From positions 1 to 64,000 of IMG/VR virus record IMGVR_UViG_3300042465_004839: a DNA stretch of 64,000 nt. One strand, given 5' to 3'. The DNA comes from a virus. Every line of letters begins with the position of its first letter. Positions within the stretch are counted from its first letter, which is position 1. Made by a program: the position numbers and the translations under genes. Under the pieces are notes generated by a model. That model was given only the letters and a program-made list of their open reading frames with translations. It was not told where the DNA came from and did no database searches. Positions 11,068 to 45,500 of the stretch are shown here, piece by piece.

Positions 11068-11541
11068 ATGAAAATAAAAAATTGTAGCAAATGTCAAAAC
11101 GATTTTACACCACATTTAAGCAGTAAAACTTGTGATGTGTGTAAACGTACCGAATATTACCTTAAAACTCAAGAGAGGGCTAAAAACAAGCCAAAAAAGG
11201 CTATTAAAAAAGTAAGTGATAAACAAAAGAGTAGAATAGTGGCTAACAAAGATTATTATGTCCAGCAAATTGCTCGGCATATGGATGAGAATAAAGGTTT
11301 ATGCCCATGTGAAAACTGTGGTGTTGAAATTGTTAATCCATCAGGAAGGAATGTGAGTCATATTATAGCAGGATCAGCTAATAGTGCTTTGTACCATCAT
11401 CCATTGAATAGATTTATTCTTTGCCACGACTGTGAGAGAGTATGGACTAACGAGGACAAGACTAAACTAAAAATCTACCAAACCTCCGAAGAGAGAATGA
11501 TAGACTTAAAGAATTTTTATTATACTACTACTGTGGTATAA
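11068..11541 (+). CDS. ninG: NinG-like HNH protein
   Basis: A 157-aa protein with an N-terminal zinc-knuckle (CSKC at about 6-9, CDVC at 22-25), a basic linker, then CENCG and a ShIIAGSANSALYHHPLNRFILCHDCE segment. This arrangement matches lambda NinG (Rap), which acts on recombination intermediates and crossover junctions. Three CxxC pairs are present. It follows a terminator, so expression may depend on readthrough or its own promoter. It converges on the minus-strand gene array. Confidence 0.7.
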   Translation: MKIKNCSKCQNDFTPHLSSKTCDVCKRTEYYLKTQERAKNKPKKAIKKVSDKQKSRIVANKDYYVQQIARHMDENKGLCPCENCGVEIVNPSGRNVSHIIAGSANSALYHHPLNRFILCHDCERVWTNEDKTKLKIYQTSEERMIDLKNFYYTTTVV

Positions 11542-11568
11542 TATTTTGTTGTGTTTTTAAATAGTTAA

Positions 11569-11751
11569 TCATTTCTTTAACTGTTTGCTAAAGAATGATT
11601 CTATCTGGTCCTTGTTTACGACAGTAAAGTCTTGTTCGTTGCAATAGTTTACAGCATTTTGTAAGTCTTTGCATAAAGTACTTTCACTTCCATCAGTTCT
11701 CTTTACTTTTACTTTACTTGATCCGATAATTACTTCTATTTTTGCATTCAT
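11569..11751 (-). CDS. Small-array hypothetical protein, last gene
   Basis: A 60-aa protein with a beta-rich start and a helical, basic end. It is the last gene of the minus-strand array and converges on the NinG-like gene. No domain recognised. Confidence 0.6.
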   Translation of the reverse strand: MNAKIEVIIGSSKVKVKRTDGSESTLCKDLQNAVNYCNEQDFTVVNKDQIESFFSKQLKK

Positions 11752-11770
11752 TTTAGTATTTGTTGTGTCT

Positions 11771-11968
11771 TTAATCAGCCAATTGATTTATAAACAAGTG
11801 TTCTATTTCTTTTATGTTATCTCTACGTTCCTGCAAATGTATAGGTTTTAGTCTTGGATTCTTACTTTGCTCTAACTTCTTTAGTTGTGCCTTGCAATTG
11901 TTAATGTATTTCAAGCTCATCCCACACAGTAACTGCCTTTGTTTTTCGGTTATGATTAGTTGTTTCAT
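11771..11968 (-). CDS. Small-array hypothetical protein, basic
   Basis: A 65-aa helical, Lys- and Gln-rich protein. It shares one base with the stop of the gene before it. No domain recognised; a nucleic-acid or protein contact role is possible from its charge. Confidence 0.6.
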   Translation of the reverse strand: MKQLIITEKQRQLLCGMSLKYINNCKAQLKKLEQSKNPRLKPIHLQERRDNIKEIEHLFINQLAD

Positions 11969-12231
11969 TATTTATCTTTATTAAATCTTTTGTGGAAATA
12001 TCTTTCAGAATTATCTATTAAGTCTATTAAATCGTATAGATTATTATAGTCTAACGTAATATAAGTTAAATTTTCAGTATCTATCTTTACTGACTTGCTG
12101 TAATCAAATGTTAAATCTAATTCATCTAATTCAGCATCTAAAATTTTTGCTGTTACTGACTCCTTTTTCTTAATTAACTTGCCAACTTTTGGGCATAAAA
12201 ATTTCTCTAAATCTTTTTCTTTGTTTTTCAT
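11968..12231 (-). CDS. Small-array hypothetical protein
   Basis: An 87-aa protein with a basic N-terminal third and an acidic C-terminal part rich in Asp, Leu and Tyr. It overlaps its neighbours by one base at both ends, which marks it as translated. Function unknown. Confidence 0.65.
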   Translation of the reverse strand: MKNKEKDLEKFLCPKVGKLIKKKESVTAKILDAELDELDLTFDYSKSVKIDTENLTYITLDYNNLYDLIDLIDNSERYFHKRFNKDK

Positions 12232-12749
12232 TATGATTTATTTTTTTTAATTATTTGTTTTAGTTTACTGATATATTTCTCATCCTGTGCATAGATACTT
12301 GATAGTAGTTTAAAGTACTCAGCATCGGTTGTAATGAATAGGGCATTTTGTATCTGGAATGCTTTATAGTCAAGGATACAATCTTCTACTGACTCATACT
12401 TTGCATAAGCTCCATAGTCGTGGCTGTTGATAGCAAAGGTAAATCTTTGCGCTGCGACTCGCATACCAAAGCAATTCAAATTGTTTTTAAACACTTGTGA
12501 CTTAAAGTTACTGCTTTCTAATATTGCCTGTGCCATTACAATGTGGCTAAACTTTATTTTGTGCTTTTCAATACTTGACTTAAAACAATCAATGTCTATT
12601 TTGTTTTCAAGGCAGTTGGCAATAGATAATTCCTTTTCAAGTGTAGTCACTTTCTTATTAGGTAGCAGTTGAATTACTGCTACACCTGTTACTGCACCAA
12701 TAATAAATATTATTAGTACTATGGCTATATCTCTTTTAAATTCTTTCAT
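12231..12749 (-). CDS. Membrane-anchored glucosaminidase-like peptidoglycan hydrolase (GH73)
   Basis: A 172-aa protein with an N-terminal membrane segment (residues 8-29) and a FlgJ-type glucosaminidase domain from about 65 to 165. The HIVMAQAILESSNFKS segment carries the catalytic Glu at residue 78, followed by NNLNCFGM and a YAKYESVEDCILDY stretch typical of the family. It would cut peptidoglycan in the periplasm while tethered to the inner membrane. It is far from the lysis cassette, in a probable early operon, so a role in wall remodelling or superinfection exclusion is possible. Confidence 0.75.
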   Translation of the reverse strand: MKEFKRDIAIVLIIFIIGAVTGVAVIQLLPNKKVTTLEKELSIANCLENKIDIDCFKSSIEKHKIKFSHIVMAQAILESSNFKSQVFKNNLNCFGMRVAAQRFTFAINSHDYGAYAKYESVEDCILDYKAFQIQNALFITTDAEYFKLLSSIYAQDEKYISKLKQIIKKNKS

Positions 12750-13330
12750 GTGTTTTTATTTATAGTAGCAAAATTATTAAAGTCACTATTGCTGATTACA
12801 TCTCCATAAAAATCAATTTCATTTACTTCCTCATTTACCAAAGCAAAGTCTAATAAAGCTCCGAGTACATGGCTATCTTTATCTAATACAGTAAAGTCAG
12901 ATGTGTCTTCAGCCCATTCTACTGCACTATTAAATCTAAATGATGTAAAGCCATCGTATGAAGTGTATCTTTCTTTTAAATAGGTATCAAAAGCATCGTA
13001 ATTACTTTGTATGTACTTTGCAATGTTACTTACTACAGGAATAACATCTACGTCTACTGCATCATTAGTGTAGTTATAGTACTTAGGGGATACAATTTTT
13101 TGATATTTCATTGACTCAATTAGTCCTAATTCAATTAGTTTAATTTCAATTTCATCAGTTAACAAATCAGCTATTTGTTCATTGTAACCTTTCCAGTCTA
13201 CTTCCACGTCATCTAAATCATCTACTTCATTGTACTCACGATATTCATCTAATTCACTATCTCCATCCCATATTGTATTGTAAAAGCCATTGAATAATGG
13301 TAACCACGTTTCTATTGTTTTATTTTCCAT
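12746..13330 (-). CDS. Acidic hypothetical protein
   Basis: A 194-aa, strongly acidic protein, with a dense run of Asp and Glu at about residues 22-50. It overlaps the next gene as ATGA. The charge pattern resembles DNA-mimic proteins such as antirestriction factors, but no such family is recognised, so this is a guess from composition only. Confidence 0.6.
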   Translation of the reverse strand: MENKTIETWLPLFNGFYNTIWDGDSELDEYREYNEVDDLDDVEVDWKGYNEQIADLLTDEIEIKLIELGLIESMKYQKIVSPKYYNYTNDAVDVDVIPVVSNIAKYIQSNYDAFDTYLKERYTSYDGFTSFRFNSAVEWAEDTSDFTVLDKDSHVLGALLDFALVNEEVNEIDFYGDVISNSDFNNFATINKNT

Positions 13331-13346
13331 AATTTTTATTGTGTTT

Positions 13347-13586
13347 TTAAATTGTTTGGTATTGTATGTTTAAAGGATTAATTAACTTGCCATCCATCAC
13401 GATTTCAACTACTGTATACGTTTCTTTTGGGGAAATTCGTAGCATCTTGCTGATACTTTCAGCAGCTTTGATCCTTTCATTCTGATGGAATTCTAATATT
13501 TTAATAATTGTTCTTCTTAACTGTGGCGTTAGTTTTGTTACCCTGTTGTTTAGCTCTGTGGCTATTTGTCCATTAGTTAAATTCAT
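13347..13586 (-). CDS. Small-array hypothetical protein
   Basis: A 79-aa helical, basic protein with a short beta-like end. Its ATG overlaps the stop of the gene before it. A weak helix-turn-helix-like feel in the first 35 residues does not allow a firm call. Confidence 0.6.
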   Translation of the reverse strand: MNLTNGQIATELNNRVTKLTPQLRRTIIKILEFHQNERIKAAESISKMLRISPKETYTVVEIVMDGKLINPLNIQYQTI

Positions 13587-13750
13587 AATTTTTGTACTAT
13601 TTTTATGTGATTAATAATTACATCTTGTTTAATTGCTGTCAGTTTACTTAATAGTTTTATTGTTTTAATGGTTGGATCTTCTAAATCTTGTTTTAACTGC
13701 TTATTGTATTTAAAACAATCTACTATGTTTGCCTTTTGATGACTGTTCAT
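13583..13750 (-). CDS. Small-array hypothetical protein, 55 aa
   Basis: A 55-aa Lys-rich helical protein. Both ends overlap neighbours as ATGA (13583-13586 and 13747-13750), which strongly supports translation despite the small size. Function unknown. Confidence 0.6.
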   Translation of the reverse strand: MNSHQKANIVDCFKYNKQLKQDLEDPTIKTIKLLSKLTAIKQDVIINHIKIVQKL

Positions 13751-13941
13751 ATCTTTCTTAAATTAAAAGGTATAGCATCTAATCCCCAGTTAAACTTGTA
13801 ACCTACTGCTAACAGCTCTAATTCCATATTTACAAGTGTAGTAAATTCAGCATCTTCATTGCTGTAAAAGTTTACAATATCTTTTGCTTCTTGTGGTAAT
13901 TGGTCAATGTTTTCAAACAAGTCTACATATTCTACTTTCAT
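13747..13941 (-). CDS. Small-array hypothetical protein
   Basis: A 64-aa acidic protein preceded by a variant of the shared leader (TGTGTATTTAAATT on the plus strand). The stop overlaps the next start. No domain recognised. Confidence 0.6.
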   Translation of the reverse strand: MKVEYVDLFENIDQLPQEAKDIVNFYSNEDAEFTTLVNMELELLAVGYKFNWGLDAIPFNLRKI

Positions 13942-13943
13942 AT

Positions 13944-14144
13944 TTATTGTGTATTTAAATTGTTATCAATAAATTCTATGTCTACACATTTGCACATCAA
14001 TTCCTCAGGAAATGCTCCACAATTAAAGTATGCACCAATGAAGTATGCCTTTGCTTCGGATTCAGTTACACTACTACTTATATTCGTAGTGTAATTGTTT
14101 TCAGCATCATCAAATTTTACGTTTACTGTATTTAGTTTGCCCAT
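13944..14144 (-). CDS. Small-array hypothetical protein
   Basis: A 66-aa acidic protein with three Cys in its second half and the shared leader before its ATG. No domain recognised. Confidence 0.6.
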   Translation of the reverse strand: MGKLNTVNVKFDDAENNYTTNISSSVTESEAKAYFIGAYFNCGAFPEELMCKCVDIEFIDNNLNTQ

Positions 14145-14188
14145 TTTTATGTGTTTTTTAATTTTTAAATTTGTTTGTGTTTGTATGT

Positions 14189-14365
14189 TTAAAATCTTTC
14201 GTTAAATTGTTGTAATCGTTTGACAAGCATTCTATCTGATTCAAAAAGTATTTGTCTTTCAATAGGCTGTAAATCTTTGTATACATCAGTTGTTTTACTG
14301 ATTAATGGATGGGGATATTGTGCTTTTAAAATATCACTTGCTAATTTTAATTGTTCGCTGTTCAT
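14189..14365 (-). CDS. Small-array hypothetical protein
   Basis: A 58-aa helical protein. The ATG at 14365 is preferred over an upstream TTG at 14407, which would overlap the previous gene. It begins MNSEQLKLASDILKAQ. No domain recognised. Confidence 0.55.
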   Translation of the reverse strand: MNSEQLKLASDILKAQYPHPLISKTTDVYKDLQPIERQILFESDRMLVKRLQQFNERF

Positions 14366-14369
14366 AATT

Positions 14370-14573
14370 CTAAATATAATTTTCGTAGTAAAATGATTGT
14401 TCAACAACAGGTAATTGTGTTTTTAAAACAATATGGTTATTGTTAATTGGCGCAATTCCATAACCAAAATGTATTGATAGTCTTTCTATCACTTGCTTTT
14501 TGGATGTTGCTTGTATTTGTATTTTGTGCTTTTTGTTTAAAGCTTTCGTTATTGTTACAATATAATTTTTCAT
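14370..14573 (-). CDS. Small-array hypothetical protein
   Basis: A 67-aa basic protein with a beta strand start (NYIVTITKAL) and a KKQVIERL helix, a pattern seen in small adaptor-like proteins. No family recognised. Confidence 0.55.
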   Translation of the reverse strand: MKNYIVTITKALNKKHKIQIQATSKKQVIERLSIHFGYGIAPINNNHIVLKTQLPVVEQSFYYENYI

Positions 14574-14577
14574 AATT

Positions 14578-14784
14578 TTATGTGGTTTTACAAAGTTTTT
14601 TTAATTCATTTAAATCTTTAATTCTAACACTATCCCAATTGCCTTTAGTCAAATCTATTAAAGGCATATTGTTAGTTATAGTTGTATACTTATTGTATGT
14701 AACTGGGCTTGTATAGGTTACTTCGTAGTGACCATAGCCATTGAATCTAAATGTAAAATCGTTTAGTCTAATCTTATTTTTCAT
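14578..14784 (-). CDS. Small-array hypothetical protein with triple leader
   Basis: A 68-aa beta-rich, Tyr- and Thr-rich protein. The shared leader core is present three times in tandem upstream of its ATG (14786-14815), the only such case in the array. No domain recognised. Confidence 0.6.
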   Translation of the reverse strand: MKNKIRLNDFTFRFNGYGHYEVTYTSPVTYNKYTTITNNMPLIDLTKGNWDSVRIKDLNELKKLCKTT

Positions 14785-14813
14785 TGTGTTTTTTATGTGT
14801 TTTTTATGTGTTT

Positions 14814-15158
14814 TTAAATTGTCATTCGTGTAATTTCTGATATTATTAATTGAAAACTGTTAGATTGTAATTGTAAGTTACCCCTTTTCCACAATTCAAT
14901 ATCTTCAATACTTGCTACATAACCATCAATTTTTTGCAAAAAAGAAGATTCAAAACAATTGTTTTCTAAATTTAATTCTAAATCATAGAAGTTTAATTTT
15001 GTATACAAATGTTTTTCTAAATAAATGTCAATTGCTTCTTCCCAATCAATTGCATAAATGCTTTGAATTGAATCGTAACTGCTAACCTGATCACTTTCTC
15101 CTTTTTCAAAATCATCATCACATACATGATGGAATGATTCTATTTCGTATTTTCTCAT
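14814..15158 (-). CDS. Small-array hypothetical protein, acidic
   Basis: A 114-aa acidic protein with an IDWEEAIDIYLEKHL helix near the middle and a beta-rich end. The shared leader precedes it. No domain recognised. Confidence 0.6.
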   Translation of the reverse strand: MRKYEIESFHHVCDDDFEKGESDQVSSYDSIQSIYAIDWEEAIDIYLEKHLYTKLNFYDLELNLENNCFESSFLQKIDGYVASIEDIELWKRGNLQLQSNSFQLIISEITRMTI

Positions 15159-15176
15159 AATAGTTTTTATGTGTTT

Positions 15177-15416
15177 TTAAATTGATATGTAATCTAAACT
15201 TTCGTATGTATAGAATTCTATGTAGTTATTTGGATAGGCATTTTCTAATGCAGTCATTAAATCATCATTGGAATATTCTATACCATTGTTTCTTTCTGAT
15301 AAAACGATAGGCTGTATCACATCCATAATTTCATCTTGTTTTAAATCAGTCAATAGTAAGAAATCTTCCTCCTGAAATGCTGTAGTATTGATGTTTATAA
15401 TGTTTAACTTTTTCAT
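15177..15416 (-). CDS. Small-array hypothetical protein, acidic
   Basis: A 79-aa acidic protein, mostly helical, ending in a Tyr-rich segment. Shared leader present. No domain recognised. Confidence 0.6.
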   Translation of the reverse strand: MKKLNIININTTAFQEEDFLLLTDLKQDEIMDVIQPIVLSERNNGIEYSNDDLMTALENAYPNNYIEFYTYESLDYISI

Positions 15417-15452
15417 AATTTTTTGTTGTGTTTTTTAATTGTTGATTGTTTT

Positions 15453-15695
15453 TTAAAATTTTGATAGATAAATATTTAAAGGTATAAGGTCAAATTCTTC
15501 TTCGGTTTCTTCTACAAAATCATCATCATTAATATAATCTATTTTTCTGTTATCGTTATGTTGTTGTAACCATTCTGAAAAATGATTTTTATTTTCAATT
15601 ATCACTTCTAATTTTTGGTTATCCCCATTTCCATAGATATCATTATATCTTACTATGTACATTTCTTTTGCTGATTTTTCTTTACTTGTTTTCAT
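15453..15695 (-). CDS. Small-array hypothetical protein, acidic
   Basis: An 80-aa protein with a basic start and a middle very rich in Asp and Glu. Shared leader present. No domain recognised. Confidence 0.6.
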   Translation of the reverse strand: MKTSKEKSAKEMYIVRYNDIYGNGDNQKLEVIIENKNHFSEWLQQHNDNRKIDYINDDDFVEETEEEFDLIPLNIYLSKF

Positions 15696-15726
15696 AATTT
15701 TTTGTTGTGTTTTTTAATTTTTAGGT

Positions 15727-15921
15727 TTATAATATTTGATTTAAATAAATTGGTTTTAAGGTATAATTATTTTTCAATTTGTATGTTTGACCAGTGCAAA
15801 TGAGATCCATGTAATCAGATAACTGTAATGATTCAATACAATGCTGTTTTATAAGTTTTTTAGTGTTTTTATCAGCAGTAGAAACTGCTATAATATTACC
15901 TTTAAAATATATTGCTTTCAT
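15727..15921 (-). CDS. Small-array hypothetical protein
   Basis: A 64-aa protein that opens with two beta strands (KAIYFKGNIIAVSTA). The leader abuts the ATG more closely than in other copies. No domain recognised. Confidence 0.55.
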   Translation of the reverse strand: MKAIYFKGNIIAVSTADKNTKKLIKQHCIESLQLSDYMDLICTGQTYKLKNNYTLKPIYLNQIL

Positions 15922-15935
15922 GTGTTTTTAAATTG

Positions 15936-16142
15936 TTAGTCTTTTAAAAGCTCTACTGTTAGGTTATAAAATTTGATGTAAAAATCAATTGGAATTAATG
16001 TGTTATATTTATCAGCTTGTCGCATAATTTCAGCCTTAATAATACTAAATTCGTTTTCGCAATTGTTTTTTTTGCAGTAATTTGTAATGTTTTCAATTCC
16101 AGCGTTTCTTAAATTGAAAGATGTTTGTTGTAATGTTTGCAT
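15936..16142 (-). CDS. Small-array hypothetical protein
   Basis: A 68-aa helical protein with an adjacent KKNNCE segment. Shared leader present. No domain recognised. Confidence 0.55.
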   Translation of the reverse strand: MQTLQQTSFNLRNAGIENITNYCKKNNCENEFSIIKAEIMRQADKYNTLIPIDFYIKFYNLTVELLKD

Positions 16143-16166
16143 AATTTTTTATGTGTTTTTAAATTA

Positions 16167-16358
16167 TTAATTTATAAAGTCAGATAGTTTTGTATCTATT
16201 GGAAATTGCATATTACCTATCCAAATATTACCATCCTCAGATATAGACAAATCTTTTGTTTTTACATTATCGTAATCAGTATAGAATTGTCTAAATTCCT
16301 TTATTGCCTGTTTTTCAAATTTTTTATAATTTGTTTTGAATTGTTTTGAAGTATTCAT
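16167..16358 (-). CDS. Small-array hypothetical protein
   Basis: A 63-aa protein with a basic helical start and an acidic end with a DGNIWIGNMQFP strand pair. Shared leader present. No domain recognised. Confidence 0.55.
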   Translation of the reverse strand: MNTSKQFKTNYKKFEKQAIKEFRQFYTDYDNVKTKDLSISEDGNIWIGNMQFPIDTKLSDFIN

Positions 16359-16430
16359 AATTTTTTTATGTGTTTTTTATATGTTTTGTTTAAGTTGAAA
16401 GCAGTTTTATAACTTGCTTAGGTTAATGTA

Positions 16431-16601
16431 TTATTGAATTACTATAGTTGAATCTAACGGATATATATTTAATTTGAGATCCATAATCATTTTGTTAAAA
16501 TCAAATGACCAAAATTGCCTATCCAATTGAATCAAATTACTTTTTTCATTATAGTAATATGGAATTGAATTGCTTTTTAAATACTTAATAATTTTTTTCA
16601 T
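16431..16601 (-). CDS. Small-array hypothetical protein, 56 aa
   Basis: A 56-aa frame starting MKKIIKYLKSNSIPYYYNEK. It fills the gap between two array genes and has the shared leader before its ATG, which supports it. No domain recognised. Confidence 0.5.
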   Translation of the reverse strand: MKKIIKYLKSNSIPYYYNEKSNLIQLDRQFWSFDFNKMIMDLKLNIYPLDSTIVIQ

Positions 16602-16626
16602 AATTGTTTTATGTGTTTTTAAGTTG

Positions 16627-16950
16627 TTAGTTATTAATTAATTCTTTTAGCATTTTAGAATTGAAACAAATTGTTTCAAATTGACTTAAATATTCATCGT
16701 TATTTTGTATTTCGTGCAATTCGCATCCAATATAATCGCAAACTGATTCATTGAATTCATTTACTGATACAATTTTGGCATAACTACAGGCATTCATAAC
16801 ATCCGTAACCATCAATATTGGATCACAGCCTAAAGTATATTTATAGTATACGTTTAACGATTTTAAGTAAGGCTGTAAGCTCTCATAATTAATACTTGTG
16901 GTTTTATCATTATTTAGTTTAATGATATCGTTTAAATTTAAATTTTTCAT
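16627..16950 (-). CDS. Small-array hypothetical protein
   Basis: A 107-aa protein with four Cys spread through its second half and an acidic C-terminus. Shared leader present. No domain recognised. Confidence 0.6.
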   Translation of the reverse strand: MKNLNLNDIIKLNNDKTTSINYESLQPYLKSLNVYYKYTLGCDPILMVTDVMNACSYAKIVSVNEFNESVCDYIGCELHEIQNNDEYLSQFETICFNSKMLKELINN

Positions 16951-16987
16951 AATTGTTTTTTGTGTTTTTAAATTTTTAAAATTTGTT

Positions 16988-17338
16988 TTATTTGGTCATT
17001 AAATTGATTGTATCTAAAATTTGATTTGCAGTAAAATAATCATTTATGCTATCAGTTAATTTTGTAATTTCTATTTTTTGGTTTAATTCATAATGATAGC
17101 ATTTATCGTAAAAGGCAGTTTTTACCTTTCCTGAAATATGATATCGTTTATTTGAATGCTTTAAATTATAAGGCTGTATTGTAATGATATCAACAAAACA
17201 AGTTTTATTATTAATATCTATAACTTTTTTTTGTAATGATGCGCCAACATTTACCAACTTTCCATTGGAATAATAATTGATAGGAATAAAGCCTAAATTT
17301 TTTAAGGTATCCCAACTTTTTAATTTTGTTATGTTCAT
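16988..17338 (-). CDS. Small-array hypothetical protein
   Basis: A 116-aa basic, beta-rich protein with a KRYHISGKVKTAFYDKCYHYEL segment split over two strands. Shared leader present. No domain recognised. Confidence 0.6.
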   Translation of the reverse strand: MNITKLKSWDTLKNLGFIPINYYSNGKLVNVGASLQKKVIDINNKTCFVDIITIQPYNLKHSNKRYHISGKVKTAFYDKCYHYELNQKIEITKLTDSINDYFTANQILDTINLMTK

Positions 17339-17383
17339 AATTTTAAATGTGTTTTTTAATTGTTTTTAGATAAATTCCAGTGT

Positions 17384-17479
17384 TTAAAGTAATTCTACTA
17401 AAATGATTAGTAGAATTACTGCAATTGCCAAACCGATAATTTCTGATAAAAATAAAATTGTTTTTATAATTGTTTTCAT
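17384..17479 (-). CDS. Tiny membrane protein, 31 aa
   Basis: A 31-aa frame with ATG, a basic start (MKTIIKTI) and one long hydrophobic segment to the end. Its 3' part contains a 14-base-pair perfect hairpin (17388-17420). It lacks a clear shared leader and starts five bases after the upstream gene. Confidence 0.4.
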   Translation of the reverse strand: MKTIIKTILFLSEIIGLAIAVILLIILVELL

Positions 17480-17483
17480 AGTA

Positions 17484-17843
17484 CTAATAATTTAATTCAT
17501 TAAAAAAACTACTAATCTCATTTTCGTAAGAGTAAAATTTATCCCTTTCAACTTGTGATGAAAGTAAACTTGCTAATAATTCGCTATTGATATTTTTTAA
17601 TTCATAGCCATATTCTAACGCTAATTGAATGCTAATATTTAAACTACTATCATAATCTTTTAAATATTGAATAGCAGTAGAATAATAAATTATTTCAACA
17701 TCAAAACCATTGTCGTTTTCTATGGCATCCCTTAATTCATCATAACTTGTGATTTCGTCAGTCATGTAGTATGCCAAATCAATTTGGCTGTCTAAATCTG
17801 ATAAAAATGATTTTGCTTTTTTTGTGTTTTCAGAGTAATTCAT
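17484..17843 (-). CDS. Small-array hypothetical protein
   Basis: A 119-aa acidic protein, helical throughout. A segment running YYSTAIQYLKDYDSSL, then SIQLALEYGY and NSELLASLL, has a regular helical-hairpin look that recurs in Bacteroidota accessory genes. Function unknown. Shared leader present. Confidence 0.65.
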   Translation of the reverse strand: MNYSENTKKAKSFLSDLDSQIDLAYYMTDEITSYDELRDAIENDNGFDVEIIYYSTAIQYLKDYDSSLNISIQLALEYGYELKNINSELLASLLSSQVERDKFYSYENEISSFFNELNY

Positions 17844-17882
17844 AATTTGTTTTTTGTGTTTTTAAATTGTTAGGAATTTATG

Positions 17883-18416
17883 TTAGTTAATTTTTTGTAT
17901 TTTTGGATTTTCTAAAAACATTTTTTGAATTTCATCTAAAAAATTTGAACATTCTAAAACATTTGAATAATTAATTTTTTTATTATTAAAACTGATATCA
18001 AATTTTACAGTTTTATTAACTTGTTTACTTTTAGAATCAAATTGAGAATTAACATAATATGTACTCATATGTAAATAACCATTATGCCCATAACTTTCTT
18101 CTAATTTAATGCGACAATGTTTACTTCCATCTAATTCAAAATGAAAATTATAATTTTTAAAAATTTCTTTTAAACTATCAATAAACTGCAAAAATGTAGC
18201 ATTACACAAATTATCAAATATTTTATTTTCATTTTCAACATTTGTGTAAAAATCATTTTTTTCAATATTGTATTCATTTGCCTTGCTAAATAATGAATCA
18301 ATAACATTGTTTTGAGATTCATTTTTTTGTTTAATAGAATTCATTTGTTGGAATTCTAACACTAAATTGCTGACCAAATTGTTTTGGCTTTCGGTTAAAT
18401 TTTTAATTGTTTTCAT
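17883..18416 (-). CDS. Small-array hypothetical protein
   Basis: A 177-aa protein, the second longest of the array. It is rich in Asn, Lys and Ser, with a beta-rich middle (CRIKLEESYGHNGYLHMST) between helical ends. No domain recognised. Shared leader present. Confidence 0.65.
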   Translation of the reverse strand: MKTIKNLTESQNNLVSNLVLEFQQMNSIKQKNESQNNVIDSLFSKANEYNIEKNDFYTNVENENKIFDNLCNATFLQFIDSLKEIFKNYNFHFELDGSKHCRIKLEESYGHNGYLHMSTYYVNSQFDSKSKQVNKTVKFDISFNNKKINYSNVLECSNFLDEIQKMFLENPKIQKIN

Positions 18417-18438
18417 AATTGTTTTTTGTGTTTTTAAA

Positions 18439-18624
18439 TTATTGATTGTTATAATTGAATTCTAATATTTCGGATAAACTAAAATCAATTTGAATGATTC
18501 TATTTTCAATTTCGCATATACAAGTTACTCTTTTACCTTTCATTTGTGTAACTTGTAACCATCTATCATTTAAATTTTGATAGTTACTTTTGGTGAAAAT
18601 TTTTGCTGATAATAAATTTTTCAT
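18439..18624 (-). CDS. Small-array hypothetical protein
   Basis: A 61-aa beta-rich protein with RWLQVTQMKGKRVTCICE near its centre, which could form a small barrel. No family recognised. It follows a variant leader. Confidence 0.55.
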   Translation of the reverse strand: MKNLLSAKIFTKSNYQNLNDRWLQVTQMKGKRVTCICEIENRIIQIDFSLSEILEFNYNNQ

Positions 18625-18630
18625 AATTGT

Positions 18631-18786
18631 TTAGTTTTGTTTTTTGAAATTTAAAATAAATAATTTAATTGCTGATGGAATTACTAATAATTCCGATAAA
18701 CCTAACATATATATGTTAGTTGTGATAATTGAAATTAAGGCTAAAATAAAGCCTAAATAAAGAAATGTAAATAATAAGTTTTTCAT
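18631..18786 (-). CDS. Small two-pass membrane protein, first gene of array
   Basis: A 51-aa frame with two hydrophobic segments (about residues 3-25 and 29-46) and a basic tail. It is the first gene of the array and its upstream DNA carries the leader in a shortened form. Its coding DNA contains a perfect 18-base palindrome at 18702-18719. Confidence 0.5.
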   Translation of the reverse strand: MKNLLFTFLYLGFILALISIITTNIYMLGLSELLVIPSAIKLFILNFKKQN

Positions 18787-19221
18787 AATGTGTTTTTTTG
18801 TTTCGTTTTGATATGCAAAGAATCATTTAATCGTTTAAAACTGAAATAAAAATAGAATTAAAACATTTTAATTTGTAAAATGCATCTATAAATCAGACAA
18901 TTAAAATTTAAAATACTTAAAAATAAATATTATTTAGAATGATTCTAAAAGAAATAAGGCTAAAAATAGCAGTTTTTAACAATCAAAAAACTTTAAAGCT
19001 CTTATTTTTTATGCATAAAAAAATTGATACAAAAAACCTTGTGAAGATCAGGAAATACAAGGCTTTACAAGGTATTTTGTCAAAATATGCTTAAACACTG
19101 GTCAAACATATAATTTGAGTAAAATATGTGTTTATTTGAATTATTTTTGATAAAAAATAAGGCAATATAAACCATCAAATAAAAAGAAGTTATAATAATA
19201 TAGTAAGGTAAAAACAAAAAA
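18787..19221 (-). promoter_or_regulatory. AT-rich control region upstream of the small-gene array
   Basis: About 435 bases with no convincing gene. On the minus strand a TGATTCTTTGC stretch about 45 bases upstream of the first array gene is a weak -7 candidate. At 19036-19042 ACCTTGT faces two direct ACAAGG copies (19057-19062 and 19067-19073), an operator-like layout next to the HTH gene at 19222. The rest is very AT-rich without other clear signals. Confidence 0.45.
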
Positions 19222-19473
19222 CTATTTTGATTCAAGTTGATTAATATATTTAAGTAAGTCAAAAGTAAAGTTATATTGTTTGCAAATAATGTACAAGGTA
19301 TTTAAAGATACATATTGAATAGAATTATTTTTAAGTTTATTGTAAAAAAAGTATTTACTGATATTTGTATCTTTCGCAAGTCTATAGATAGTTATTCCCT
19401 TATTACTTATTAAGTCAGTTATGAATAACTTAAATATTTCGTTTGTTGTATTCGTTAATTGTATTTTGTCCAA
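19222..19473 (-). CDS. XRE-like HTH regulator
   Basis: An 83-aa protein. Residues 27-75 fit a Cro/C1-type helix-turn-helix: ITIYRLAKDTNISKYFFYNKL, then a LNTLYIICKQYNFTFDLL pair of helices, in line with the family. It opens with TTG, because no ATG is available. It lies just upstream of the control region of the small-gene array and is the best candidate for its regulator. Confidence 0.7.
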   Translation of the reverse strand: MDKIQLTNTTNEIFKLFITDLISNKGITIYRLAKDTNISKYFFYNKLKNNSIQYVSLNTLYIICKQYNFTFDLLKYINQLESK

Positions 19474-22197: not shown

Positions 22198-22270
22198 GTC
22201 GGGAGCAAGGAATTGAACCTCATTTTCTACCTCTCGTAGGTAGTGTAATTGCCATTATACGACATCCCAA
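22198..22270 (-). tRNA. tRNA-like gene with Gln-type D arm, aberrant anticodon loop
   Basis: On the minus strand a D arm GTA-TAATGGCAAT-TAC, an anticodon stem CTACC/GGTAG, and a T arm with loop TTCAATT give a near-complete cloverleaf, most like tRNA-Gln of phages. The seven-base anticodon loop reads TACGAGA, with A where U33 should be, so the anticodon (CGA by position) is doubtful. The acceptor stem pairs only in part (TTGGGA with TCCCGA). No CCA is encoded. It could be a decaying tRNA or a tRNA mimic. Confidence 0.55.
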
Positions 22271-36510: not shown

Positions 36511-39500
36511 ATGCCAGATAAAATAAAAGAAGCATTTACTGCTATAAACGACAAAGAATTATTTTTAGACGAACAAGACTTTAGGGATAATGTAATGAAA
36601 GACCCAAAAGGAACATTTGAAGCATTAAATAATTATGGTAAAACTAAAGGATTTTTTTTAGATTATGGAGATTTTGAAAGTGCTTTAGATTTAAAAAAAA
36701 AAGAGCCTACAGCACCATCTATACCAAATTTTTCAACAAGTTTGGGAGGGGATATGCAACCTTTGCCAAGTGGTGCAAAAAATATTTCCCAATCACCATT
36801 ACAATCGAATATAAAAACAGAGTTTCCGACATACATTGACCCTACAAAACCTTTAAAAACAAAAGAGGTTATAGATGTAAATGCGGAGAAGAAACCTTTT
36901 GATAGTGAAGTAATAAGAAAAGAAAGAGAGGTAAGATTAGGTACACATAGAGAAAAGATAATGTCTTCTATTGTTAAAGAACCTGACTTATATACTAAAA
37001 AAGCATCTAAGTCACATTATGGAACTATAGCAGTACCAGAAATGCCTAACATTGATAACATATCAAAGGCAATAGATTACTATGCAACAAAATTAGTTAA
37101 ACAAGGTGAATACCTTAGCCCACTTGATAAACAATATTTAGTAAATAGTGTTGCTCAACAAGTAAAACAAAGGAAAAATATTGCAGATGCAGCAGCAAAT
37201 GCAAGTCTTAGAGCAATAAACAGAAAAGAATTACCTGAATACGCTTACACAGGCGTAACTAATGCTAAAGGAGAAGTGTTAGTAAAAGGACTTTTTCAAG
37301 AAGCAAACGAAAAAATAATCAACGAACAAAATAAGGAAGTTGACAATTACAAAATAAATTCTGAAAATTTAACAAAAACAGTAGCAACAGAAGTTGCCCC
37401 AGAAGTAAATGCTTTAAAACTTGATGTTAAAGCCAAAGCAGAAATATTAAATCAAGAGGTAGAAACTGCTTTTAATAAATCATTTAACGAAAAAGACAAA
37501 GCTATGTATGACCAATACAATCAATTGGTTCAAAGTGGGCAAATGACTCCTGATGTAGCAAATAATGCTTTAAAAATAAAAAGAGAAGAATTACAAAAGC
37601 AGACACAAGCAGAGATAAGTGCTGCCTATGCTCCTAAGTTTGATGCATTAAATAAAGAATCTAACTTAAAATCAAAAGACATACAAAGTACATATAACAG
37701 AAACTACTTAGCAAAAGCAAACTTACTAAAAGAAACTACTAACAAAAAACTTCAAGAAATAGCCCAAAAAAATATGGTAAATATGCCTAAAGGGTATATG
37801 GAAAGATGGGCAAAGGATTTTCAAGAAAGTTTAGCTGAAATAGAAAAGAAAAACGTAAATCAAGCTTATTTAGATGCTAAAAGAATGCCAGCAGAGGCAA
37901 GATTAGCAAAAGCAGTTTCTTTTGGGTTTGGTAATGTATTAGGCTCAATAGGAGGGGCTATGTCATTTGCAGGATTAGATGCAAGTGCAGTAAACGATGT
38001 AGTTATTAAAACTACAATGCAAAATGAACTTACAAGTAGTGCGTATTACCGAATTAAAGATGAAGAAGCAAAAGCAAATGGAACTCCACACGCTAATTTT
38101 GTAGAGAAACTTTCTGATCCTTCTTGGTGGTATGATAATATGGGAAGTACCGCACCATTTATGTTAGTAACTATGCCAGTAGGTATAGCATCAGGTTATG
38201 GGGCAGGCTCTATAGCAAAATTATTAGGAGCGAGTAAAAGAGCAACAGCTATTGCAAGTGCAGTAGGTGGTGGTGCAGTAAGTTGGTATGGAGAAAACAC
38301 ATTAGAGGCAGGAAGTGCATTTAACGATGCTATTAATCAAGGGTACTCAGAAAACGATGCATCAGAAATAGCAGCAAGAACATTTAGAAATAACATAATA
38401 ACATTACCTCTAAGTGTATTCCAGCTAATGCCAGTATTTAGTAAATCATTTAAATTTACTAAAGCATTACCGTTAGAAATAATTTCTGGAGGTGTTGAAG
38501 AAGTGTTTCAAGGTTGGTCACAAGCTGAAGCAAATGCAGCAGCAAATGGGTATGATGTAAGTTTATTTGAGTATGCTAAAACCCCACAAGCATTAGAGGA
38601 GGGAACTATTGGAGGTGCGATGCAAGCAGGTATGGCAATGTTTGCATTAAATGAAACTCCAAATATTGACAAACAAATATCTGCATTAATGAGTTCTATA
38701 AGTGTAGGTGGCGAACAGTATGCAAGAGCAGTATTGGATGTAATGAACAAGAATCAAGCCATTACAGATGCTGAATTTAAAGAAGCTAACCTACAAATAG
38801 ACTACATCTTAAATGGTATTGAAAGTGTTCAAAACTTTAATGTAGACGACAATTTAAAGGCAGGATTAGTAGGTAAATTTGCTAAAATAGGCAGAGCAAA
38901 GGCATTAATTACAGATGATGAGAATGACTTGGCAAGTCAAGCTGCAAAAGAAATGATTGCAGAGCAAGAGAAGGATATAAAAGAAATTTTAAAAGGTAAT
39001 ACACCTTTATATTTAGTATTCCAAAAAGGGAATCCAATACCAACTTTAGCAAGTGAAGAGCAGTTTAACACAATACTAAAAGACCCAAAACTAAGAGAGG
39101 AATTTACATTACAAGCAATAAATGATGATGCATTGCAAAGTAAAATAGATGAAACATATAAAACAGGAGTAGTAACAGAAGAAGAAACAATAAATGCAGA
39201 ACAAGAAATTATACCAGCAACTGAAACCCCTGCTGCACCACCTAGCGGTGTTAGTGGTGAGGTACAGGCATCTGGTGATGTAGAAGCAAATATAGCCAAC
39301 AGAAAAAGAAAAGATTTATTCCCTGACAAATCAAGATTTGCTAATGACGTAGGTCAAAGTGGAGAAAACTCTCAAATATCATCATACAAAGAAGTAAATG
39401 GAATTGGATTATCAGAATATTCTAATCCTAAAAATGGTTTAGTAGATGTTATAATGACAGGAACTTCTGATAATGATTATGTTGGATACATAAGAATATA

Positions 39501-42500
39501 CGAAAACGGCAAGCCAACAAATAGATGGACATCTAAAATGTCAAACAAATCTGGCAATAAAGGCAACTTTAAAACCATGATAACAGAAGCTCAAAAATTA
39601 CTTCCAGAGGGTCACGAATATACTGAAACTACAAATATATCTTTAGATGGTTTAAGGGTTTATGCTAACAGTTTAAGCAGAGATTATGAAATAGCTACTG
39701 ATGAAGATGGAAAACCTATAACAAATAATGTTGAATTAAATAATGCAACATTAGCAGCACTACAAGGCGCAAAAAATCAACAAGAAACTGAAGATTTGTT
39801 TGACACTAAACGAGGAATTACAAGAGATGAATTTAATCAAATAAAAGAGCAAGTAAATAAATTATTGCCAAATACAAGATTATTATTTGACACGGCAAAT
39901 GGAATTGTAACAATACAATTACCTGTACTAAAATCAACTAAAAAACAATTAACAACTAACGAACAACAAAAAGCATCTAAAAAAGTTGCTGAAGTAACTC
40001 CTAAAGAAGGCGACAGCGTTATTATAAAATCACGTTTTGGTCGTGATGAAAAGTTGGTATTTAATAAAGGAGAGTGGAGAGTACAATTTGGTAAAGATGA
40101 ATTTAGTGATATTGGTAAGGCTGCTCAACAAGAAGCTCAAGATGCATTTAATAAAAAGAATGAACCTGTTGCTGAGGTTAAGGAACAAGCACCTGTAGTT
40201 AAGGAACAAGCTCCTAATAGGGCAGAAGGAAATGTTAAAGTAAAATCTTTTAAACAAGGAGATGGCGGAACAAAAGGAGTTTTTGAAGGAGAAGATGGTA
40301 AACTTTATAAATCTATTGAGCCACAAGAATCAGTTCAAGACAAAGAAGGAAACTTTAAGCGTCAAACCATTAAAGATACACTAACAGACGAGCATAAAAT
40401 ATTGTCTGAACTTCAAGATAACCCTCATGTACCTAAAGTAGGTAAAATTGTAGATACTACGGAAGGCAAAGCTTTTGAAATAGAAAAATTAGATGAAGTT
40501 GATACTTTTACTAAAGATGAGTATAGGGAAATTCAAAAAATACTAAATGACTTAAACGACAAAGGTTATCATGTAGGAGATAGAGTTACTGTTATGAAAC
40601 GCCCAAAAACAGGCGAACTTGTTATTATTGATTTTTCTGCTGGGTACAAAGGAAGTAGAATGTCAAGAGATGCCGATGAATATATGGGTGACGTAGCAAA
40701 GAAACTAAGTAAATCTGATGCTATAAATATTAAATTAGAAGACTTGTCAGAAATAAATAGAGAACAAGCAGATGCTTTTTTTGACAAAGAATCAACTACT
40801 GAATACTACTTAACACAAAGACCTCCAAGCATAGGAACACACCCAACAGAAGGATTATTATCGGTTAACGAAGCAGAATATAGAAACAGAAAAAATGTTT
40901 ATATACTTAAATATGATAGAAAACTTACACCAAACGAAATAGCTAACTTTGAACTAACTCCTAAAGTAACAAATAAAGAATTTTTAGGTCAAAAAATATT
41001 AGGTGTATATGGTAAAGTTCCATTTTATGTAACTAAAATAGATTACAAAAATGGAACTGTAAAAATGGCTGCGGAGGTAGTTGGAAAAGAAGTAGAAAAA
41101 GAAATTTCTTTTAGGGAGTTTAGTAAAAATATAGACGAAGGTAAATATAAAGTAGAAACACCCAAAGAAGAAAAACCTGTTAAGGAACAAAAAGAGCCTG
41201 TTAAGGAACAAACTGAAAAAGAAAAGGCTAAAGAAAAGGCTAAGGAAGAATTAAGAGCAAGAGCAGCAAAAGCTAAAGCTGAGGCTATTAGTGCTGCACA
41301 AAAAGTTCAACAAGCATTAGAGGCAACAGGAATAACTGTTGAAGTAGTTGATAGTGAGCAAGAGTTCCAAGATAAATTAGATGCTGAGGGTGTTAATAGA
41401 GCAAGTTCAGCAGGTAAAAGCGGTGTATTTATATCTAAGTCAGGTAAAATATTTATTAACGGTAGCAAGGTTGATGCTAACTGGGGTAGTGTAGATGTAT
41501 GGCACGAAGGAACTCACCCTATTATTAACATAATAAGGAACACAAACCCTAAACTATACAATTCAATAATAGATGGACTAAATAAATTAGTTACAAGTAA
41601 TCCAGAGATTGCTGATGTTTTAAAGTGGGCGCAAAAAAATTATAAAGGCAAAAACACTTTAGAGGATGAAACTATAACTGAAACCATAGCAAGAATAGCA
41701 AATGGCAATATAGATATATCAAAGATACCTACATCATTAAGAGATAAGATAATAGATTTCATTAATGAGATTGCTAAGTCATTAGGAATAAAACCTATGT
41801 TCAAAAGTTCTAATGTTGCAACATTTAAAAAGATAGCAGGCGAAATATCTGCTGCACTTAAAGAAGGTAAAGATATTAGTAGTATAGTAGGTGCAGAAAA
41901 TGTTAAGAATTATGAGTCAAAAATAACAATAGAAGACTCAGAGTCTTATGTTAAAAAAGCAAATGAATCAGAAACATCAGAAGGTATTAATAATGAAAAT
42001 ATATCTATTAGCGATATAAGCGGTAACTCTAGAAAAGGCATTCAGTTTTCAAAAGGCAAGGAAAGAACCGAAGAGAAAGCTAAAGAAACAGTTGAAGATA
42101 AAATCAAGGCAGAAACAATAAAAGCAGTAAAAAAATCTATATTAGACTACAAAAGTTTAAAAGGTAAAATATCAAGAACACTATTTTATGATAACACAAG
42201 GGTTGGTTCTTTAGAAATAAAAAACAGAATTACAGGATACACTCCACCTGTTATGGGTAAGGGTGGCTTCTTTTATTCTTATATGCCTAGTTCTTTAAAA
42301 AATAAAGCAGTATTAGCATTTACAAGTATTAACCAAGCCATACAAACCTTAAAGAGGCAAATGCTATACCCTGATGGGTTACAGGCTATTGCTGCTCAAA
42401 ATTTTCAAACTGCACATCTTGGGAATAAGTCTACCTTAGAAGCATTGTTTGGGAAAAGTGGTTCTGAAAATTTAGGCATATTTCAAGACTCTGTAAAAGA

Positions 42501-45500
42501 TGTAAAAAACAATCCGAATGGGGAAGCTGAGTTGCTAGAAACATTGAAAAAAGCAACAATAGATATTGCCAATCAAAAAGTGCAGTCAGGAGTTAATGAA
42601 GGCAAGCCAACGGCATCAGCAGAAGAGATAAAAAAAATAATAGAAAGAAATGGAGGAAATTTAGATGGTATAAAATCACTTGATGATTATAGGGATAAAG
42701 TTTTGACATTTACAGGAGGTGACTCATTTGGAGCAAGAAATATATTATTTACTGAAGTACTTCAAGAAAAACCAACAAAAATAACTAAATCCACAAGGGA
42801 ATCTCACCAAATAATACATTATAAGTATGGCATTCCTACCTTATCTGAAATAGCCGAAGGTAATAATCAAAGTGAACTAAATAATGCCGAAACAGGAGAT
42901 GTTGTTAAATTTGTAAAGCCATACACAGACCCTGTTGTATACACTACTGACAAAAAAATATATAAACAATACTCTGAAAATCCAACGCCTGAAATGGTTG
43001 AGAATGGCATTAAAATAAAGTTATTGCCTAAAGATGCTGCACACGAATCTTATGCTTTTGTTTTAAAAGGTGAAAACGTAGGTTTGTTAGACAACTACAT
43101 TTCAGCCACTCAGTTATATGAAAAAAATGAAAAAATAGCCAACACCCCTAAAAAGCAAAGTTTTTATAAAGTGGGAAGGATGCCTGCAAATGCAGAGGCT
43201 GGAGTGTATCCAGAAAACCCCATTGCTCAGGGAAAGGCTCAATACTCACAAGGGAACAGAGATGCTGTTGCAAATAAGAATACAGAAAAAAATAATATTA
43301 TAATAAAAGATAATAACATAGAGGGCAAACTTCTTAACAATCAAGAGTCACAAAAATTACAAAAAGAAATTGAATCTAAATATAATGACTCAGGAATACA
43401 AAAATTTGGACAAGAAAATGAAGATATACGTCAGAATTTATATAACTATGATAACCCATTAGCAGAAAAAGATGTAAATGGGATTAATATAAGAATTGCA
43501 GAGGGATTATTAGAGGGAGATAAATATTCTGGAAACAGGAAAAAAACTTATTTGTTATATGCAGATGGTAAGATAGCAGGTAAATTCTATTCTGTAGCAG
43601 ATGCAAAAAAAGTTGTAAGTTTTATTGAGCAAAACTTAATAAAACCAAAATCATTAGCACCAAGTAATCCTCAATACTCTCAAGGTAACAGAGATGCTGT
43701 TGCTAATGAAAACTTAATAAATGGATTCTATTCACCATTAGAGAAAACAATTAACGATTCTAAGCAAGATAAGATGCCTGCTAAACAATGGATAGAAAAG
43801 TTTGCTAAAGGTGAAGAAGCTAAATGGACAGGACTAACTGATTGGTTAAGCTCTCAAACAGGCTCGGTATCTAAAGCAGATATTCAGCAATACTTAAAGG
43901 ACAATAGAATAGAAATTGAGGAAAAAGTTAAAGGAAGTTCTGATTGGATTAAAGAAGGTAAATCATATTTTTCACAAAATAAAAAATATGAAATAAGAGA
44001 TTTAGGTGATAATGAATATACAGTAATTAAAGATGGCAGATATAATTTAGGTAGTCGTGATGGTCTTGAAAGGGCTAAAGAACTTGCATTTGAAGATGGA
44101 TATTCAAATGAAGAAGATATAAATAATGACACTAACTTTGGCAACCGACCTGATTTACAATTAGAAGGAGAGAAAGAAAATTACAAAGAGATATTGGTGA
44201 CGTTGCCAAATAAAGAAGCAATAAAAGAATCTGAAATTGAAGAAAAAAGACGAAAAGCTGGAATTATGGATAATTTTAACTTTGAAACAATGGGTTATAA
44301 TGATACTCGAAATGTTCCAAAGTTTGTATCATCTCACTTTGATGAACCCAACATACTCGTTCATTTAAGGATGAATACTCGTATAGATTCAAATGGTAAT
44401 AAAGTATTGTTAATTGAAGAAGCACAAAGCGATTGGGGTCAAACAGGGAAAAAGAAAGGGTTTAAACCAACTTTTGAAATTAGAAACGAAAAAGGTATGT
44501 TCAATGTTTATTCTTCTGTAAACAATATGAAAGAACCTGCATTTTCTTTTGATACAAAGGAAGATGCAAATAAAATGCTTGAAACTTTAAATAAAACAAA
44601 TGAAAGTAAAGTTCCAACTGCACCATTTGTAATGGACACAAATGCATGGGCTAAACTTGGTTTAAAGGTAGCATTAAAAGAAGCAGTTGCACAAGGAGTT
44701 GATAAGATTGCTTGGACTACTGGAGAGCAACAAAATGATAGGTATGATTTAAGCAAACAAGTTGATGAAATCAATTACAGTAAAAATTCAGATGGAACTT
44801 ATGATGTATCCGCCAACAAAAATGACAACCAAGTATTTGACAAGTCTTACATAAAAGAAAATGAATTAGAGGGAATAGTAGGCAAAGAAGTTGCTCAAAG
44901 AATAATAAACAATGAGGGTAAAGAACCGGTAAGGGGTAGTGGTAATTATAAAAAATCATTAAGTGGTGATGGATTAAAAGTTGGCGGTAAAGGAATGAAA
45001 GGCTTTTACGGATCACCAACAGAAGGTAAATTAGGTATAGTAGGTGAGGTTGCTAAGAGTTTGTTTAAGCAAGAACCGAAAACGGTAAGTATAGAAGGAA
45101 TATTAAGTTTTAATGTTTACGATAATAAAGATGGGAATTTGCAAGGTAATTTTGCCGACTTTAATTCTGCAAAAGAATTTGCAAAAAAAATAGATGGTAG
45201 TGTTCAAAAAACAAATATTTCAACTCAAAATTCAATAGACATAACACCAGAGTTAAAAGCACAAGTTGAAGAAGGTCTGCCTCAATTCTCGCAAGGGAGT
45301 AGAGATATACAATCTCTTGTAGATATAATTACAGAAACTCAAGAAAAAGGACAATTAGATGATAATGAAATAGCAGAAACTTTAGAAGCTTCTTACTCTA
45401 AAGAAGAAATTCAAGAAGCATTTGATTATATCAATAACCCACCTATAAATGAGCCTACTGCAACAGAAACTGTAGAACCATCTAAAGTTGAATCTGAAAA

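Follow-up and report, generated by a model that had tools for sequence, protein, structure and literature searches.

A 14-nt sequence, AATTTAAAAACACA, recurs immediately upstream of start codons throughout an array of small genes in a virus from the IMG/VR collection (record IMGVR_UViG_3300042465_004839), and the anatomy of this block suggests to us that it is likely a phage-adapted leader for translation initiation, operating independently of Shine-Dalgarno (SD) sequences on the array cistrons in a Bacteroidota host. The window analysed here is a 64-kb stretch of the record, which totals 73,169 bp and may itself be incomplete. The array comprises ~26 genes, 25 open reading frames (ORFs) of 51-194 amino acids plus one of 31, at 11569-18786 on the minus strand; it is transcribed leftward, running from ~18.79 to 11.57 kb, where it abuts a convergent HNH endonuclease gene (11068-11541). 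Most of the genes fit no known family. Because their proteins show no paralogy among themselves at E 1e-3, the leaders are common to genes that do not otherwise have a sequence in common.

Recurrence and anatomy of the leader

The core of the motif, AAAAACACA, has 20 copies on the coding strand between 11543 and 18800 and none on the opposite strand, nor is it found on either strand across the remaining 56.7 kb of the window; dinucleotide shuffles of the region give a mean of 0.87 copies and a maximum of 4. Exact cores lie within 45 nt upstream of 14 of the 26 array genes. Leaders matching at least 13 of the 14 letters of AATTTAAAAACACA precede 13 of the 26, against none of the 77 other genes (1000 shuffles: mean 0.1, maximum 2), and a recognisable form (at least 11 of 14) precedes about 17. 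Likewise, AATT stands immediately 5' of the ATG in 14/26 array genes and in 7/77 others. About eight array genes are without a leader, mostly those overlapping or abutting the gene upstream (11771, 11968, 13347, 13583, 14189 and the 31-amino-acid ORF). The sequence-only reading that drew attention to the block had placed it before nearly all of the 26 genes: its recurrence is borne out, but the number of genes concerned was overstated. That reading had also considered that the motif might be equally frequent before genes outside the array, or be explained by AT-rich background, and the counts given above speak against both.

The full unit can be written (TAA-ACATACAAnnnnnAAACA)AATTTAAAAACACA-n9-11-ATG, where the bracketed extension is found before 13944-14144, partly before 12746-13330, and also in both of the related arrays described below. 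Spacing to the start is fixed, with CACA ending 9-11 nt before the ATG in 11 of the strong leaders, all of them, like the other copies, on the minus strand. AATTTAAAAACACA itself is found at 18427-18440 (10 nt from CACA to the ATG of gene 17883-18416), 17855-17868 (11 nt, gene 17484-17843), 16961-16974 (10 nt, gene 16627-16950), 16152-16165 (9 nt, gene 15936-16142), 15170-15183 (11 nt, gene 14814-15158) and 13340-13353 (9 nt, gene 12746-13330). Variants are AATTAAAAAACACA at 17348-17361 (9 nt, gene 16988-17338), 15706-15719 (10 nt, gene 15453-15695) and 15427-15440 (10 nt, gene 15177-15416), AACTTAAAAACACA at 16612-16625 (10 nt, gene 16431-16601) and ATATAAAAAACACA at 16369-16382 (10 nt, gene 16167-16358). 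In two genes CACA directly abuts the start codon (AAAAACAC-ATG). The AATTTAAAAACACA copy of gene 15727-15921, at 15921-15934, overlaps the start codon itself (AATTTAAAAACAC-ATG). The first gene of the array, 18631-18786, has a weak leader, AACAAAAAAACACA-TT-ATG (18789-18802).

Spacing to the upstream stop, on the other hand, varies: the core may follow the stop (as between 17883 and 17843), span it, or lie within coding sequence. It spans the stop at 15170-15183 (the TAA of 15177-15416), at 13340-13353 (the stop of 13347-13586) and at 14807-14820, the latter within the leader of gene 14578-14784, which consists of three tandem 11-nt CACATAAAAAA units (14785-14820), the first of them covering the TAA of 14814-15158. 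The leader of gene 13747-13941, AATTTAAATACACA at 13948-13961, sits in the last codons of 13944-14144 and thus dictates the C-terminus of that protein. The suggestion that the block lies in intergenic spaces therefore holds in part, since where genes are tightly packed the motif runs across the upstream stop or occupies the final codons of the upstream gene. Gene 13944-14144 has in turn an extended leader, TAA-ACATACAAACACAAACAAATTTAAAAATTAAAAAACACATAAAA-ATG (14145-14191), that occupies the entire stop-to-start spacer; this long form, TAA-ACATACAAnnnnnAAACAAATTTAAAAACACA, is also found 3' of the orthologous upstream gene in both related arrays.

Gene 12231-12749 is preceded by a truncated leader, ATAAAAACAC-ATG (12749-12762), within the coding sequence of 12746-13330, and by a -7-like element, TAATTTTG, 19 nt before its start. 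It encodes an endolysin-like protein of the glucosaminidase type (PF01832, 7e-16) with an N-terminal hydrophobic segment. The 31-amino-acid ORF, at about 17384-17479 on the minus strand between 17484-17843 and 16988-17338, is hydrophobic and is without a CACA leader. Past the last array gene, an orphan leader, TATTTAAAAACACA (11550-11563), has ATA where ATG would be expected; within 11518-11563 it is followed by a palindrome resembling a terminator that the array would share with the HNH gene facing it.

Proposed initiation without Shine-Dalgarno pairing

The 31-amino-acid ORF was excluded from the counts of leader composition and structure and of second codons (n=25), and from the three-array counts given further below. 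The earlier claim that the array is without SD sites is upheld: GGAG, AGGA or GAGG is found in 0/25 array leaders and in 7/77 leaders elsewhere. Array leaders contain 2.7% G (9.9% elsewhere), with 15 of the 25 entirely G-free, and the predicted unpaired probability around the start is 0.71, compared with 0.57 elsewhere (p=2e-5). Of the array leaders, 88% have A at -3 and 88% at -6; the A-run and CACA cover about -19 to -11, and positions -14 to -11 are A in 56-64% and C in 20-36%. Starts of the form ATGAA are found in 21/25 array genes against 19/77 others, while an ATG within 30 nt upstream is found in one of 25 array leaders and 14 of 77 elsewhere.

Ribosome profiling in Flavobacterium johnsoniae has identified A at -3, -6, -12 and -13, together with low structure, as positive determinants of initiation; AUG is scarce around the start, and domain 4 of ribosomal protein bS1 has been suggested to contact about -12 to -15 (PMC6847099, PMC9976891). 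Because the array leaders are start-anchored, almost G-free and predicted to be unstructured, and because their A at -3 and -6 and their A/C block match these determinants, a special ribosome landing site fits best among the three options that the sequence-only reading had offered, the others being a target through which a phage protein switches the whole array and a recombination cassette boundary. Under this interpretation, each unit along a long leftward mRNA would offer a G-free, unstructured stretch of A and C before its own cistron; the A-run and CACA, over about -19 to -11, would occupy the stretch that faces bS1 in other ribosomes, followed by A at -3 and -6 and then by the ATG and an A-rich second codon, so that 30S subunits could start on every small gene independently. 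We infer from anatomy and comparison that the leader acts in translation, where it would raise initiation with bS1 as its putative reader, and copies may have spread by recombination alongside the gain and loss of accessory genes. Base pairing to 16S rRNA was considered and rejected: the longest exact complement in the 16S rRNA of Maribacter (Bacteroidota) is 8 nt, consists of A/T only and does not involve the CACA core. A phage-encoded bS21 was looked for and not found.

Several observations weigh against this interpretation. Generic A-richness would not call for a core as specific as AAAAACACA, roughly one array gene in three is without a core leader, and related arrays use other A/C leaders (AACTAAA in G011, AATAAATAA in G005). 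In 10 genomes, mostly of Bacteroidota, the core before ATGAA is at background (37 matches, against 32 for the reversed core), and on account of this lack of enrichment the core is no general host signal. Lastly, the excess of the motif in the viral collection is modest when no promoter is included in the pattern (114 vs 44), and such collection-wide counts include related contigs, so are indications rather than clean statistics.

Related arrays and other viruses

The large terminase is distantly related (~29%) to those of Flavobacterium 'elemo' and Cellulophaga phages, and the closest relatives of the virus are IMG/VR contigs with terminase identities of 94-47%; given this kinship, the host is probably a member of Flavobacteriia. 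Two of the relatives, G006 (contig L142) and G008 (L144), have a syntenic array with the same leader, and a search for more such phages via the conserved gene 13347-13586 recovered only these two, which were already known. An apparent loss of the leader in G001 proved wrong, as this sequence is only part of the genome of a very close relative of G006 and stops short of the array.

Across the three arrays, 39 of 73 genes lack a counterpart in either of the other arrays, and gains and losses often fall at leaders. For example, 3' of the 14189-14365 ortholog one long leader is present in identical form in each of the three phages, but the gene that comes next is different in each (two of these genes may be distant homologues). 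Orthologous genes may carry different leaders, as in the 15727-15921 family. We also considered whether the leader marks orphan genes; this appeared to be so in the window alone (10/11 vs 5/14, p=0.012) but was not significant when the three arrays were pooled (Fisher p=0.16), and the idea was rejected. Upstream of the array, at 18790-18960, and in L144 upstream of 11479, there is a conserved ATTCATTCTAAATAATATTTATTTTTA-like sequence, and a CTTTGC element closely precedes the first gene; this stretch is probably the array promoter region.

More distant members of the group differ in their leaders. In G005, the three genes orthologous to array genes 11569, 14189 and 12746 have leaders of the AATAATAAA kind, and a neighbouring run of eight small genes (L148:7197-9441) includes several with AATCAATCA leaders, a recurrence that at eight genes is not above shuffles. 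G011 has a small-gene array of its own (L153:12205-18547) with a recurrent leader, AACTAAA(A/C), AACTAAA being present in 11 of 22 leaders where shuffles give at most 10. As the leaders of G005 and G011 differ from the CACA form, leaders rich in A and C and poor in G are a recurring feature of the group, and the repeated sequence varies between lineages; of these leaders, the CACA form makes the strongest case.

The leader also precedes starts in apparently unrelated viral contigs (L018, L044/L056 and L043/L054). In several of these the motif lies just downstream of the promoter element TATATTTG, that is, inside the predicted transcript, as in L054 (TATATTTG-CAGAAACAATTTAAAAACACAAAAATT-ATG) and L044 (TATATTTG-TAAAAAAACACA-ATG), and from this position it is best regarded there as a transcribed leader and not a promoter. 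Across the viral collection, the pattern TATATTTG-n3-20-TAAAAACACA-n2-12-ATGAA is found in 98 stretches (52 distinct), compared with 19 (12 distinct) for the reversed core, and the AATT extension, which is outside the search pattern, is present in 24 of the 52 distinct stretches. None of the 98 promoter-linked loci showed multi-copy use of the array type, each having at most one further copy. Use in host genomes or prophages was rejected as a candidate: GTDB genomes gave 27 isolated matches, with no contig carrying more than one copy, and the promoter-linked pattern was not found in 296 genomes of the phylum. A literature search for the string ATTAAAAACACA retrieved no relevant paper. In L279, a distant terminase relative, CCCTAAATTTATT recurs upstream of genes with TATATTTG and is perhaps a promoter -33 element.

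These distributions allow a broader, more doubtful proposal, which we put forward tentatively: that the leader is a phage-specific element common to apparently unrelated Bacteroidota phages and not general in their hosts, that it might give privileged access to SD-blind host ribosomes via bS1 or a phage factor, and that lineages have their own 'dialects' (AAAAACACA, AACTAAA and possibly AATCAATCA).

Alternative explanations and known systems

An RNA operator, with its CACA core read by an RNA-binding protein or a small RNA of the phage that switches the whole array on or off, would account for a core whose specificity exceeds generic A-richness and which is kept in three related phages despite gene turnover; different recurrent leaders in other phages of the group are likewise as expected of regulators of differing specificity. 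However, the array proteins scanned (some small ORFs were not) include no RNA-binding Pfam family, there is no phage bS21, and the motif also turns up in contigs with hardly any proteins in common with this phage, a distribution that points rather to a reader in the host, for instance the ribosome; we regard an operator as unlikely. Alternatively, each copy might be a promoter, with an unknown phage sigma factor or RNA polymerase reading TTTAAAAACACA before each gene and transcription beginning a few nt 5' of the ATG. The tight spacing to the ATG places the motif where a short-leader promoter could be, and intergenic repeats of halovirus HF2 have been shown to hold promoters (PMC8707807). Yet several copies lie inside the coding sequence of the previous gene, and in the apparently unrelated contigs the motif is downstream of TATATTTG, within the predicted transcript. 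The host -7 element TAHHTTTG has only four matches on the coding strand in 11401-19300, of which just one (12769-12776, before 12231-12749) is within 60 nt of an array start, and no RNA polymerase was found among the large proteins examined, a search that left out sigma factors among the small proteins. A repeated promoter seems to us quite improbable. A virion RNA polymerase as the reader was rejected on the basis that the 3079- and 1373-amino-acid proteins have no polymerase family or DxDxD motif, only DarA_C.

The idea that the leader is a recombination cassette boundary, a short homology for swapping accessory genes among phages with any part in translation incidental, draws on the 39 of 73 genes unique to one array, on the spacer TTTTAAACATAC...AAATTTAAAAA... 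that is common to the three phages after the 14189-14365 ortholog while the next genes all differ, and on the orphan leader left at 11550-11563. The motif is nevertheless tied to the start and not to the stop or the spacer, orthologs carry differing leaders, orphan genes are not significantly marked in the pooled arrays, and lone copies in other viral contigs would be useless for shuffling. As a primary explanation this is very improbable, and what is left of the suggestion is a secondary evolutionary role at sites where genes are gained and lost. Chance is refuted by the shuffles and the strand bias, even in a region as AT-rich as this one (GC 0.22-0.29) with A-rich spacers within the array; simple duplication of neighbouring genes is at odds with both the lack of paralogy and the presence of the same leader in two diverged relatives, and we consider either origin extremely improbable.

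A translation leader of this type has a counterpart in the start-associated sequence (SAS) and extended SAS (ESAS) of cluster K mycobacteriophages, the function of which is unproven but for which a role in translation initiation has been proposed (PMC3203893; PMC12699233). As with SAS, a short asymmetric repeat lies just upstream of many non-structural, non-homologous phage genes, in a single orientation (here 20 copies to none, 9-11 nt before the ATG), tied to the ATG and sometimes covering the upstream stop, and some copies have an upstream extension. SAS itself, however, is a 13-bp consensus, GGGATAGGAGCCC, with an SD core 3-7 bp from the ATG, whereas AATTTAAAAACACA is nearly G-free and SD-free, stands 9-11 nt from the ATG and belongs to a phage of bacteria whose phylum makes no use of SD. 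ESAS has 17-bp imperfect inverted repeats, while the array extension, TAA-ACATACAA..., is not obviously one (no inverted-repeat scan was made). With a different consensus and no SD, the array leader falls outside the cluster K SAS family, but in its working it may be comparable, a start-associated sequence suited to ribosomes that are blind to SD. The array leader also resembles the Kozak-like, A-rich non-SD initiation regions of F. johnsoniae in having A at -3, -6 and about -12/-13, low structure, AUG depletion and no SD (PMC6847099); the host genes, however, show a loose statistical preference, and the array repeats a nearly fixed CACA-core sequence that is unenriched in the hosts sampled. 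Halovirus HF2 (PMC8707807) similarly has repeated AT-rich spacers between viral genes, but this is an archaeal virus with promoter-bearing repeats, in contrast to a motif that contains no promoter element and lies downstream of a promoter in other viral contigs.

Two further features of the window stand apart from the array, a tRNA-Ser (cga) at 22198-22270 on the minus strand and the 3079-amino-acid protein (36511-45750, plus strand), whose DarA_C domain (PF18789) is consistent with its possibly being an injected antirestriction or virion protein.

For the choice of start codons without SD pairing in Bacteroidota, the host signals known so far amount to weak statistical preferences. One strong leader placed before many unrelated genes would be a natural, testable optimum for SD-free initiation, and may be of use as a source of parts for gene expression in Bacteroidota. 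It would also constitute a second, sequence-unrelated case of phage start-associated repeats, spread across a fast-changing block of small accessory genes.

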